Made by a program: the position numbers and the translations under genes
In this document: piece after piece, positions 57-33,143 of the stretch
Layout of the letters: each line of letters opens with the position of its first letter
Numbering within the stretch: position 1 is the stretch's first letter
Notes under the pieces: generated by a model
Database searches by the model: none
What the model saw: the letters and a program-made list of their open reading frames with translations, nothing else
What the model was told of the DNA's origin: nothing
Source: Pyrinomonadaceae bacterium
Lineage (GTDB): Bacteria > Acidobacteriota > Blastocatellia > Pyrinomonadales > Pyrinomonadaceae
Assembly: GCA_025923035.1 (NCBI GenBank)
Contig: JAICGQ010000002.1
Location: 1 to 48,974, forward strand
Direction of reading: 5' to 3'
Length of the DNA stretch: 48,974 nucleotides

Positions 57-155
57 TTTTGTGCTTGGTACTTAGTGCTTTGTACTTTGTTTTGGAGTTC
101 CAAGGTTTCCAACCAGGAACAAAGCTCAAAGTTCAAAGCACAAAGCTCAAAGTTC
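57..155. repeat. Heptamer-based inverted repeat, copy A, next to the M20 gene stop codon
   Basis: Left arm TTTTGTGCTTGGTACTTAGTGCTTTGTACTTTGT (57-90). Right arm GAACAAAGCTCAAAGTTCAAAGCACAAAGCTCAAAGTTC (117-155). The reverse complement of the right arm shows the same xxCTTTG 7-nt phasing. Confidence 0.8.
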
Positions 156-13112: not shown

Positions 13113-13226
13113 TTGTACTTAGTTTTTGGTGCTTTGTGCTTTGTTCGCAGGTTGACAGGTGAATTCGAATCGAGCAGTACACCAGAGAACGAAGAACCAA
13201 GAACAAAGCACCAAGCACAAAACACA
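13113..13226. repeat. Heptamer-based inverted repeat, copy B
   Basis: Left arm TTGTACTTAGTTTTTGGTGCTTTGTGCTTTGTTC (13113-13146). Right arm GAAGAACCAAGAACAAAGCACCAAGCACAAAACACA (13191-13226). It fills the whole gap between two permease genes. Confidence 0.8.
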
Positions 13227-14495
13227 ATGAAATTTTCCGGCGGCCATTTTTTCGAAAACGTGCGCATGGGTCTCGACACCTTGTGGCAGCACAAACTCCG
13301 TTCGTTCCTGACGGTGCTCGGCGTCGTGATCGGCACGATGACGGTGATCGTTATCGCCGCGTTTGTTTCCGGCATCGACCAGCGTGTGGCGAAGGAGATC
13401 GAGTCGTTCGGCACCAACTCGATCTACATCTATCGCTTCGATCCGGGGTTCAACTTCAATCCGTCAGCCGAAGAACGAATGCGGAAGCCGCTCAGTTACG
13501 ACGACATGGTCGCGATTCGGACGGAGTGTCCTTCGGTTGCTTACGCGACGGCTTTCATGTCGCCCGTTGACTTCTTCGGTGGTCCATTCACGGAGCGAGT
13601 CTTCGTGCGGCATCGTGACATCGAAATGAAGAACGCGGCGGTCCAGGGTACCTCTTCCTCGTACTTCAAGATGGGCGTGACGAACATCGCGGAAGGTCGT
13701 TATTTCACCGACGAAGAAGACGCGCTGCATGCGAATGTCGTCGTGATTGGTAACGACGTCGCAAACACGTTGTTCCCGTACACGAAAGCCGTGGACCAAA
13801 CCGTTTCGATCAACGGACGGATTTATCGCGTTGTCGGTGTGCTGGCTGAACGCGACATCTTTCTCGTTGGCGCGGAGGATCCCAACAACGAGAACAAAGC
13901 CGTCTACATGCCTTACCTGACGCTGCGCAAACTTTATCCGGACGTAGACGACAACTTCGTGATGGCCCAGGCGCATGCGGGGAAGATGGACGCGGCGGTT
14001 GAAGAGATTCGCGAGTTGCTGCGACGCCGGCGCAAGGTGGCGTATGACAAACCGGACAATTTCGGAATTTCAACGTCGGATCAGATCCTGACGCAGTTTG
14101 GCGCGATCACCGGCGGGATATTCGCGTTGATGGTGGCGATCTCGAGTGTCGGGTTGCTGATCGGTGGGATCGGTGTGATGAATATCATGCTGGTGTCGGT
14201 CACGGAGCGGACGCGCGAGATTGGCGTGCGCAAAGCGATTGGTGCGCGAAAGCGCGACATCGTGGCGCAGTTTCTGATCGAAGCCGGAACGCTGACAGGA
14301 GTTGGAGGTTTGCTTGGGATCGCCGTCGGCAGTGGTCTCGCGTTGCTGATTCAGATGTTGATGCCGACGTACATTCCACTGTGGGCGCCGATCGTCGGGT
14401 TTGTTGTATCGGTCGGACTTGGTGTGGTGTTTGGATTGTGGCCCGCCTGGAAAGCCGCGCGGTTGAATCCGATCGAAGCGCTTCGCTACGAGTAG
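13227..14495 (+). CDS. ABC transporter permease (MacB/FtsX type), paralog of the preceding gene
   Basis: Start reassigned to ATG 13227 (MKFSGGHFFENVRMGLDTLWQHKLRSFLTVLGVVIGTMTVIVIAAF). The 38 aa upstream in the ORF track are translated repeat. Confidence 0.9.
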   Translation: MKFSGGHFFENVRMGLDTLWQHKLRSFLTVLGVVIGTMTVIVIAAFVSGIDQRVAKEIESFGTNSIYIYRFDPGFNFNPSAEERMRKPLSYDDMVAIRTECPSVAYATAFMSPVDFFGGPFTERVFVRHRDIEMKNAAVQGTSSSYFKMGVTNIAEGRYFTDEEDALHANVVVIGNDVANTLFPYTKAVDQTVSINGRIYRVVGVLAERDIFLVGAEDPNNENKAVYMPYLTLRKLYPDVDDNFVMAQAHAGKMDAAVEEIRELLRRRRKVAYDKPDNFGISTSDQILTQFGAITGGIFALMVAISSVGLLIGGIGVMNIMLVSVTERTREIGVRKAIGARKRDIVAQFLIEAGTLTGVGGLLGIAVGSGLALLIQMLMPTYIPLWAPIVGFVVSVGLGVVFGLWPAWKAARLNPIEALRYE

Positions 14496-23953: not shown

Positions 23954-25843
23954 ATGCCGATACTCAAAACCCGAGCGGTCACTGCCCCGACACTGTTTGC
24001 GATTCTGCTTCTTTTCGGCGTTTCGGTTTACGGACAAACGTCACCGGAAATCGCGTTTACCGTTTCGATGCCGCGTCCGCATACGCACCTGTTCGACATC
24101 GACGTCTCAATCAAACGTGGTCCAGCGGCAACAGCGCCGAACGAAGAGCTGCTGGTGATGCCGGTCTGGACGCCAGGTTCTTATCTGGTGCGCGAGTTTG
24201 AACGCAACGTGCAGGACTTCACCACGACCGACGCCGCGGGCAAGCCACTCAACTGGGAGAAGATCAACAAGAACACGTGGCGTGTCGTGACCAACGGTTC
24301 TCGCGATTGGCGTGCGACCTACAAAGTTTACGCAAACGAACTTTCCGTTCGCACCAGCGAGCTGAATTCGAGTCACGCTTACTGGAACAACGCGAACCTG
24401 CTGATGTATCTCGAAGGCTTTCTGACGAGTCCTTCGACGGTGCGTGTGGTCGCGCCGGACGTGTGGAAAGTCGCCACCGGACTACCCGGCGTGCCCGGTC
24501 AGCGCAACACATTCCGCGCCGAAAACTTCGACGTGCTTTACGACTCGCCGTTCGAAGTCAGTAACTTCAAGAGCATTCTTTTTAACGTGAAAGGCGTTCC
24601 GCATCGCATCGTGATCGACGGAGCAGGGAACTACGAGCCGGAGCGCCTGCGACGCGACGTGCAGAAGATCGTCGAGACGCAGGTGGAATTGATGGGCGGC
24701 GAGATTCCGTATCGCGACTACACGTTCATCCTGCATCTGCGCTCGAACACGGGCGGCGGACTCGAACATGCAAACTCCACGTCACTCGGTTATTCGCCCT
24801 TCGGTTTCGCGATTACACGCGGCGATCGCCTAACTTCGGCGTCGCCCAATGCAGCCGAAGCGCAACGCGATTATCGCGGCTTTCTTTCGCTCGTGTCGCA
24901 CGAGTTCTTTCACCTGTGGAACGTGAAGCGCATTCGCCCGGACGCGCTTGGTCCATTCGATTACACGAAGGAAAACTACACGAAGCTGCTGTGGGTGGCG
25001 GAGGGAATTACCGACTACTATTCCGATCTCACGTTGCGTCGCGCGGGGTTGATCACGGACGGCGATTTCATCGGCGCGACAGCGCGCGCGATACAGGCGT
25101 TGCAGAACACGCCGGGACGGCTGGTCCAAAGCGTTGAAGAGTCGAGCTTCGATGCGTGGGTGAAGTTTTACCGGCCCGATGAGAACACGATCAACTCGCA
25201 GGTTTCTTACTACGACAAAGGCGCGATCCTTGGCCTGTTACTCGACCTCGAGATTCGCAAACGAAGCAACGGAGCGAAGTCGCTCGACGACGTGATGCGC
25301 ACGCTTTACACCGAATTCTTCAAGAAGAACCGCAACTACACGCCCGCCGATTTTCAGAAAGCAGCGGAAGCAGCCGCGGGCGGGAGTCTGGAAGATTTTT
25401 TCGCGAACTACGTGCGCGGCAGGGAAGAGCTGAATTACAACGCCGCGTTCGAGGCGGTTGGCCTGCGTTTGGAGACGACGTTGCTTGGTGCGAATAACCA
25501 GCCTCTCGAGCGCATCAATTTCGGCGCCGACCTTCGGCAGGACCAAGATCGTGTGATGGTGACTCGCGTTTACGCAGGTTCTCCGGCTTACGATCAGGGG
25601 CTGAACACTGGCGATCAGATCGTAGCGCTCGACAACGTGCGGGTGACGCGCGACTTCTTCAACGCTCGCATCGCGGAAAAGAAGCCCGGCGATATTATCA
25701 ACCTGACGATCTTTCGTTTTGACGAGTTGAGTACGTTATTAATCAAACTTGGTGGACGAACCGACGGCACGTTCCGGATCGTTCCCCTGCCGTCACAAAC
25801 AGAAGCGCAGAAGAGAATGTTGCGCGGTTGGTTAGGTGGTTAG
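23954..25843 (+). CDS. M61 family (glycyl aminopeptidase-like) peptidase with PDZ domain
   Basis: 629 aa; zinc motif SHEFFHLWNVKRIRP, WVAEGITDYYSDL, PDZ-like VYAGSPAYDQGLNTGDQIVALDN. Confidence 0.93.
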   Translation: MPILKTRAVTAPTLFAILLLFGVSVYGQTSPEIAFTVSMPRPHTHLFDIDVSIKRGPAATAPNEELLVMPVWTPGSYLVREFERNVQDFTTTDAAGKPLNWEKINKNTWRVVTNGSRDWRATYKVYANELSVRTSELNSSHAYWNNANLLMYLEGFLTSPSTVRVVAPDVWKVATGLPGVPGQRNTFRAENFDVLYDSPFEVSNFKSILFNVKGVPHRIVIDGAGNYEPERLRRDVQKIVETQVELMGGEIPYRDYTFILHLRSNTGGGLEHANSTSLGYSPFGFAITRGDRLTSASPNAAEAQRDYRGFLSLVSHEFFHLWNVKRIRPDALGPFDYTKENYTKLLWVAEGITDYYSDLTLRRAGLITDGDFIGATARAIQALQNTPGRLVQSVEESSFDAWVKFYRPDENTINSQVSYYDKGAILGLLLDLEIRKRSNGAKSLDDVMRTLYTEFFKKNRNYTPADFQKAAEAAAGGSLEDFFANYVRGREELNYNAAFEAVGLRLETTLLGANNQPLERINFGADLRQDQDRVMVTRVYAGSPAYDQGLNTGDQIVALDNVRVTRDFFNARIAEKKPGDIINLTIFRFDELSTLLIKLGGRTDGTFRIVPLPSQTEAQKRMLRGWLGG

Positions 25844-25947
25844 TGCTTAGTACTTTGTGCTTTGTACTTTGTTCGCTAGTGTGGCGTTCTACTCAGTTCG
25901 GATCGTTGAGCATGCGAACAAAGTACTAAGCACAAAGTACTAAGTTC
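25843..25947. repeat. Heptamer-based inverted repeat, copy C (near-perfect hairpin)
   Basis: Left arm 25843-25875 GTGCTTAGTACTTTGTGCTTTGTACTTTGTTCG. Right arm 25915-25947 reverse complement GAACTTAGTACTTTGTGCTTAGTACTTTGTTCG. 30/33 identical, 39-nt loop. Confidence 0.9.
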
Positions 25948-25956
25948 GAGAAAAAA

Positions 25957-26733
25957 ATGTCTTCTGAGTACCAGCACATCCGTTTACAAATTGACGATCG
26001 CGTCGGGCGCATCACCTTTGCGCGACCGCCTTTGAATGTTTTCAACATCGCGATGATGCGTGAGATTACGTCGGCGCTCAGCGAGTGTGCGCGTCGCGAC
26101 GTCGTGGCGATCGTGTTTGCTTCAGACAAAGACTGTCGCGCGTTTAGCGCCGGCGTTGCGATCGAAGAGCACGTGCAGGAAACGATCTACCAGATGCTCG
26201 ACTCCTTTCACGCCATCTTTCGCCAGCTCGAACAGATCGCGAAGCCCGTAATCGCGTTGGTCGACGGAGCGGCACTCGGAGGCGGCTGTGAACTGGTTGC
26301 AGCGTGCGACGTCGTGATTGCTTCGGATCGATCGCGGTTTGGCGTGCCCGAGATCAAACTCGGCGTGTTTCCGCCGGTTGCCACTGTTTTACTGCCGTTA
26401 GTGATTGGCGAAAAAAGGGCGCGCGAGTTGATTCTGACCGGCGAGATCATCGACGCCGTGGAGGCAGGACGGCTGGGGCTGTGCAACCATGTGGTTCCCG
26501 GGCCTCATCTCGAACCCAAGCTGCTCGAAGTTACTGCTAAACTGAGGGAGCTTTCGGGGACGTCGCTCGAATTCGCGCGACGCGCGATGGATCTTGGGCG
26601 CGGGCGCACGCTCGACGAGGCTTTGACGGAACAGGAAAACATCTACCTGCACGAGCTGATGAAGACGGCCGACGCAAACGAAGGCATCAAGGCGTTCATG
26701 GAAAAACGCAAACCTGTTTGGCGACATCGTTAG
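25957..26733 (+). CDS. Enoyl-CoA hydratase/isomerase family protein
   Basis: 258 aa; crotonase fold motifs RPPLNVFNIAMMREITSAL, FSAGVAIEEH, VDGAALGGGCELVAACDVVIASDRSRFGVPEIKLGVFPP. Confidence 0.92.
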   Translation: MSSEYQHIRLQIDDRVGRITFARPPLNVFNIAMMREITSALSECARRDVVAIVFASDKDCRAFSAGVAIEEHVQETIYQMLDSFHAIFRQLEQIAKPVIALVDGAALGGGCELVAACDVVIASDRSRFGVPEIKLGVFPPVATVLLPLVIGEKRARELILTGEIIDAVEAGRLGLCNHVVPGPHLEPKLLEVTAKLRELSGTSLEFARRAMDLGRGRTLDEALTEQENIYLHELMKTADANEGIKAFMEKRKPVWRHR

Positions 26734-33067: not shown

Positions 33068-33143
33068 GCCCCTGTAGCTCAACGGTTAGAGCAGCAGACT
33101 CATAATCTGTTGGTTCGGGGTTCGAATCCCTGCGGGGGCACCA
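33068..33143 (+). tRNA. tRNA with CAU anticodon (Met or Ile2), CCA encoded
   Basis: GCCCCTGTAGCTCAACGGTTAGAGCAGCAGACTCATAATCTGTTGGTTCGGGGTTCGAATCCCTGCGGGGGCACCA folds as a cloverleaf. Acceptor GCCCCTG/CGGGGGC, anticodon loop CTCATAA, T-loop TTCGAAT. Confidence 0.95.

Follow-up and report, generated by a model that had tools for sequence, protein, structure and literature searches.

Hairpin between the M61 peptidase and enoyl-CoA hydratase genes

The stretch of DNA analysed here (the window; 48,974 nt from contig JAICGQ010000002.1 of a Pyrinomonadaceae bacterium) contains a long inverted repeat, designated copy C, between two genes on the same strand. The features at this locus are as follows.

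23954-25843, + strand: gene for an M61 family peptidase with a PDZ domain (Pfam PF17899/PF05299; orthologous ends)
25843-25875, + strand: left arm of copy C, rich in T and built of phased TRCTTWG heptads with a final TTCG; the M61 stop codon ends on its first base
25876-25914, no strand: loop of 39 nt separating the 33-nt arms, with conserved inner edges TTCGC...GCGAA
25915-25947, + strand: right, A-rich arm of copy C, matching the left arm in inverted orientation at 30/33 positions and ending 9 nt before an ATG
25957-26733, + strand: gene for an enoyl-CoA hydratase/isomerase (PF00378)

The TAG stop codon of the M61 gene (25841-25843) is part of the outermost heptad; the ATG that follows begins at 25957. 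The preliminary description of this DNA had placed the arms in the same way relative to the two genes, and its coordinates agree with ours. One extra degenerate heptad, TGGTTAG (25837-25843), is located inside the end of the M61 gene. Comparison of the orthologous ends showed that the C-terminus of this M61 protein departs from those of its congeners beyond WLG. The synteny of the two genes is retained in four congeners, where the heptad hairpin is absent.

The near-perfect 33-bp repeat with its 39-nt loop, as described earlier, was borne out: the best 33-nt inverted repeats in six random windows (Markov-1, with the dinucleotide content of the window) matched at only 21-24 of 33 positions. A repeat search returned a 31-nt core with 97% identity and a 37-nt loop, and the predicted RNA fold has an energy of -56.2 kcal/mol (z -9.7). 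A search for terminators and promoters at copy C found neither, and no T-tail follows the stem. An intrinsic terminator (a GC-rich stem and then a T run) is unsupported for copy C, which has no terminator-like site, and so is the attenuator suggested earlier, as the T-tail is missing. The sole Rfam match in the window was a tRNA gene (33068-33140; RF00005, 72.4 bits), with no rRNA or other known RNA family.

Two related hairpins in the window were also analysed.

55-154, no strand: copy A, T-arm at about 55-89 and A-arm at 120-154, at the contig end
13113-13227, no strand: copy B, T-arm at 13113-13146 and A-arm at about 13183-13227, between two genes

Copy A abuts the TAG stop codon of a minus-strand gene (155-1483), and the gene downstream of copy B encodes a MacB/FtsX permease. 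Both are genuine, but weaker than copy C (arms 79% identical, z -3.7 and -4.1).

Genome-wide distribution

The genome of origin (G000) is a metagenome-assembled genome (MAG) of 4.80 Mb in 507 contigs, 88% complete; the close study used contigs C1-C77 and further pieces of it. The pattern (TRCTTWG)3 with up to three mismatches gave 320 + 290 (610) matches in the 4.80 Mb, as compared with 4 + 2 (6) for the reversed pattern. Thus, the dispersed family proposed from copies A, B and C extends over the whole genome. About 60 TRCTTWG hairpins were found, in which the T-arm always precedes the A-arm. In 1.55 Mb there were 33 T-arrays and 33 A-arrays (1 and 1 for the reversed-pattern control); these pair 30 times in the order T then A and never in the reverse order.

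Period-7 arrays, scanned for with no preset sequence, numbered 26 in the non-coding DNA (163 kb), and none fell in the 1.38 Mb of coding DNA. Of the other periods between 5 and 15, period 8 alone was in excess, to a smaller extent (5 against 1). The intergenic bias for which a test was proposed earlier was therefore found, and the copies are neither lacking elsewhere in the genome nor scattered at random inside genes. The neighbouring genes were co-directional for 24 of the 29 hairpins with both flanking genes known. The hairpins adjoin the stop codon, at distances of -14 to +19 that carry some error in the gene ends, because the genes in the 1.55 Mb were called by a purpose-built simple hexamer model; the distances to the next start spread more widely. 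The hairpin often provides the stop codon itself, which was TAG in 16 of 28 cases as compared with 25% of all genes. The hairpins are a genome-wide family confined to the gaps at stop codons, and copy C by itself is an ordinary member of it.

The same hairpins were detected by pattern scan in 11 stretches of named genomes, mostly MAGs of Pyrinomonadaceae/Acidobacteria. In one hairpin of G000, on contig C185 (L137 265-433), the left arm runs to 15 heptads of almost pure TGCTTRG, a recent expansion. Two genomes of the class Blastocatellia (G062 and G067; L209-L232) are rich in arrays of another heptad, GATTCGT, several of them as direct clusters.

The same junctions in congeners

For 19 hairpin junctions of G000, 55 orthologous gaps were read from three to four congeners. 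Nineteen of these gaps were 25 nt or shorter, 2 had TRCTTWG arrays and 17 had another inverted repeat. The hairpins are present or absent at orthologous junctions of related species, as the comparison proposed in the preliminary description was meant to reveal, and the contents of the gaps indicate a turnover, by gain and loss, of hairpins from several families at these junctions. Neither a target-site duplication nor a recent jump was detected in the gaps, which in the congeners are too diverged to fix the empty site base by base.

Other hairpin families at stop/start junctions of the congeners were GCGGAT/ATCCGC, TAGGACCTATAGGACC, CACAAAAAGGCACAAAAG, GATTTACAAGATT and GGGGCGGCC, observed in gaps of G003, G005 and G015 (L112, L113, L163, L166, L175, L179, L188 and others). 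Apart from these, an intergenic stretch of about 200 nt ahead of the MKVLMFGDVVAKPGR gene is strongly conserved in the congeners (L188, L195, L201; L052 in G000) and looks like a candidate structured RNA.

Composition of the arms and loops

The arms are made of phased heptads, as first described, but the unit is nearer to WDCTTDG than to the TRCTTWG given at that time, since positions 2 and 6 are free. Four heptads per arm is the mode (36 and 32 of 61 arms), and five heptads were counted in 13 and 12 of 61. At positions 2 and 6, the two arms of one copy agree no better than arms of different copies, and no covariation of the arms was detected at the variable positions (z -2.5 in register and -0.5 with the best register). 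Selection on exact pairing of the arms, which predicts such covariation, was rejected; its absence fits recognition of the heptad instead.

The loops are commonly about 45-48 nt long with the edges TTCGC...GCGAA, and their interiors are unrelated among copies. Several loops contain a second, nested heptad hairpin (GTCAGTN). When the loops of the orphan (ORF-less) hairpins were compared with each other and with the interior of the IVP element described below, no likeness was found apart from the nested GTCAGT repeats and a single pair, formed by copy A and the hairpin on contig C444. The comparison does not support loops that are copies of one another or of the IVP-element interior, and the orphan hairpins are therefore not simple recent copies or deletion derivatives. 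Together, the unrelated loops and the arms without covariation suggest that what is retained is the heptad itself. The complete difference among the loops is explained by none of the models considered here, simple copy-and-paste included. In the one exceptional pair, the copy A loop (window 62-154) is 93% identical to the C444 loop (L149 307-393); these are probably the same or duplicated sequence, divided by the assembly at contig ends.

S23/IVP genes flanked by the same arms

On contig C16 of G000, an intact S23/IVP gene (PF05635, 95 bits) lies between TRCTTWG arms 400 nt apart. The positions of the arms, assigned from the TRCTTWG arrays, are as follows.

L049 12198-12233: T-arm of the C16 IVP element
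L049 12632-12660: A-arm of the C16 IVP element

G018, from another genus, has an ortholog at this locus, again between TRCTTWG arms. An IVP also stands at the equivalent locus of the congener G005, but its arms are TGGTCTT, and TGGTCTT arrays number 107 in G005 and 0 in G000, G003 and G015. The G018 and G005 proteins are each 60% identical to the C16 IVP. A second IVP of G000 (C38) has octad arms, GGAGACGC, and all the period-8 arrays found in G000 are GGAGACGC. The arms of the third (C293) are ATTGCGA, a unit close to that of the ATTGCCR hairpins in G000. Orphan hairpins have arms identical to those of the resident IVP, and the arms and the IVP gene form a unit inherited together. The C16 IVP matches PDB entries 2gsc and 2rld, with five chains each.

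No cognate IVP was found for the GTCMGTN hairpins of G000 in this 88%-complete MAG, and for some congeners rich in TRCTTWG, among which are G008 and G012, an IVP with TRCTTWG arms was not shown. No IVP reading frame was found inside a long-loop hairpin of G006 (L237).

Association of IVP genes with heptamer and octamer arms

Of 62 IVP loci, from Acidobacteriota and four cyanobacterial plasmids, 52 lie between inverted arms; among control genes, 1 of 150 in G000 and 0 of 48 in relatives attained the same score. The sample consists of high-scoring IVPs, which may flatter this rate. About 10 of the 62 have no clear arms. The unit is 7 nt at 43 of the 52 loci, 8 nt at eight and 9 nt at one, with agreement between left and right. 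In 44 of 52, the 5' arm contains more G than C when read on the coding strand of the IVP. Among plasmid IVPs from Cyanobacteriota, Gemmatimonadota, Pseudomonadota and Bacteroidota, 17 of 20 have arms (4 of these 20 loci are already counted in the 62). The control with mismatched left and right sides gave 11 of 200, a value raised because plasmids share units. As judged from sequence, the association is a general one and holds in five bacterial phyla, Acidobacteriota and the four represented on plasmids.

Arm similarity tracks IVP distance, with a Spearman coefficient of -0.22, and 500 permutations (sd 0.054) went no lower than -0.152. In each of the 8 closest IVP pairs the arms are shared, and the sharing spans families of the phylum. 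The octad arms cluster on the IVP tree (as low in 2 of 500 shuffles).

Comparison with known repeat systems

STRR heptamer repeats have been noted since 1990 in cyanobacteria and elsewhere, and S23/IVP has been known for decades from rRNA intervening sequences. The TRCTTWG family consists of tandem, degenerate, dispersed, intergenic heptanucleotides, as STRRs do. It resembles both the cyanobacterial STRRs and the TAACTGA repeats of Beggiatoaceae in that the heptamers stand intergenically in several units and overlap gene ends; the GTCAGTN heptads of G000 are even close to the reverse complement of TAACTGA. Those, however, are direct repeats with no partner gene described, whereas the arrays here are inverted and linked with S23 genes, on cyanobacterial plasmids as well. 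PMC4679880 makes no mention of S23.

The 23S rRNA intervening sequences (IVS) of Coxiella and Leptospira share with the elements here the S23/IVP protein, a length of about 430-460 nt and a stem of about 28-31 bp formed by inverted repeats. In Coxiella, the stem of the IVS is 28 bp long, tandem heptamers precede the S23 ORF as they stand beside it here, and the IVS is excised by RNase III; the S23 protein of Xanthomonas is a toroidal homopentamer (PMC4990558). Copy C has the long stem from terminal inverted repeats and, with its 39-nt loop, no S23 ORF, which the C16 element with the same arms does contain (PF05635). Unlike the IVS, the elements here stand in operon gaps (for copy C, between the M61 and enoyl-CoA hydratase genes), their arms are entirely inverted heptamer arrays, and the same genome has many ORF-less hairpins. 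In the Nostoc trnL intron, the P6b stem-loop is likewise built on heptanucleotide motifs, of two alternative classes (PMC4476775), but it lies within a group I intron and has no known S23 link. MITEs, too, are short extragenic hairpins dispersed at the ends of genes and share terminal repeats with a protein-bearing element, as the orphan hairpins do with the C16 element and its G018 ortholog (TRCTTWG arms), but the S23/IVP partner is not a known transposase and the loops here are unrelated between copies.

Descriptions thus already exist for heptamer repeats, for S23 intervening sequences and for heptad stem-loops, each by itself, and the earlier supposition that the heptamer-hairpin form is undescribed is incomplete in view of the Nostoc and Coxiella cases. 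In the open-access literature, which our search covered and to which the claim of novelty is therefore limited, no paper relates S23 genes to heptamer arrays in general.

Proposed origin of the hairpins and alternative explanations

Copy C is best interpreted as a relative of the S23-bearing 23S rRNA intervening sequences that lacks the IVP and is located in an operon gap. We consider it probable that it is a protein-less member of a hairpin family whose protein-bearing form is an S23/IVP gene within inverted heptamer arrays, and the interest of copy C lies in this partner of the family. The S23 protein (PF05635), a pentameric four-helix bundle by homology, would recognise its own heptamer arms with approximately one unit per subunit; the modal arm of four heptads, not five, speaks against this. 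The resident S23 protein, together with further enzymes, may act in trans to maintain or move the gene-less arms. To our knowledge, S23 has no known catalytic activity, including transposase activity, and no partner enzyme for S23/IVP was found. By analogy with the rRNA intervening sequences, a stem of about 30 bp in a polycistronic mRNA would be a likely RNase III substrate, and its cleavage might separate the cistrons and make an insertion between stop and start tolerable. The preliminary interpretation is partly supported as a whole: among the roles it listed, the evidence favours a non-autonomous mobile hairpin and a putative protein-binding site over the attenuator, while the link to S23/IVP genes was invisible to its reader.

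The strong stems placed directly at stop codons, between co-directional genes in 24 of 29 cases and with the arm consensus retained although the loops diverged, could also be expected of hairpins that benefit the host as REP-like mRNA 3'-end stabilisers or processing sites, where IVPs merely land. We regard this as unlikely, because most orthologous junctions of the congeners function with a gap of at most 25 nt or an unrelated hairpin, the arms do not covary, and the heptad sequence is specific to the IVP clade across genera and phyla, which landing in host hairpins would not predict. The niche of REP sequences, with hundreds of extragenic, palindromic arms per genome at gene ends, is indeed similar, but mobilisation by a Y1 (TnpA-REP) transposase of the RAYT type is hardly credible. 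PF01797 is absent from G000, the 88%-complete MAG with the most hairpins, and from G015, and is abundant in G004 (15) and G014 (7), where the heptad matches number 6 and 0. It does not track the heptad hairpins across the genus, and REP/REPIN arms are not heptamer arrays as these are.

Growth of heptamer arrays by polymerase slippage in non-coding DNA, with inverted pairing by chance or template switching, would suit the variable array length (15 units in one arm) and the statement of Mrazek, as cited in PMC4679880, that heptamers are the commonest prokaryotic repeats of 5-11 nt. It is nevertheless very improbable, because slippage predicts neither the orientation of the pairs (30 to 0 in 1.55 Mb) nor the link to IVPs, 52 of 62 of which are flanked by arms; the unit is, moreover, common to the whole genome and identical in the arms of the IVP.

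The origin preferred above, from S23/IVP elements, can be extended to a wider proposal, which we offer tentatively. S23/IVP proteins may be the specificity factors of widespread tiny mobile hairpins, each clade reading its own 7- or 8-nt unit of a length set by the protein; STRRs would then be their arms and footprints, and the rRNA intervening sequences a special case that landed in rRNA. If so, the long-puzzling heptamer repeats gain a candidate partner protein, and two old puzzles, the scattered heptamer repeats and the function of S23/IVP, become one testable system, in which sequence data predict which protein should bind which heptamer, and whether a 7-mer or an 8-mer, by clade. It would also name a recurrent source of operon inserts, including those in cas and suf operons on plasmids.

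Plasmid IVPs with heptad or octad arms were observed within operons, several of them in tight co-directional gaps (L383, L388, L319, L394). The gene orders were cas6-IVP-cas4 on plasmids of Anabaena sp. 90 and Pseudanabaena galeata, cas10-IVP-cmr3 on a Picosynechococcus plasmid and sufA-IVP-sufB on a Riemerella plasmid.
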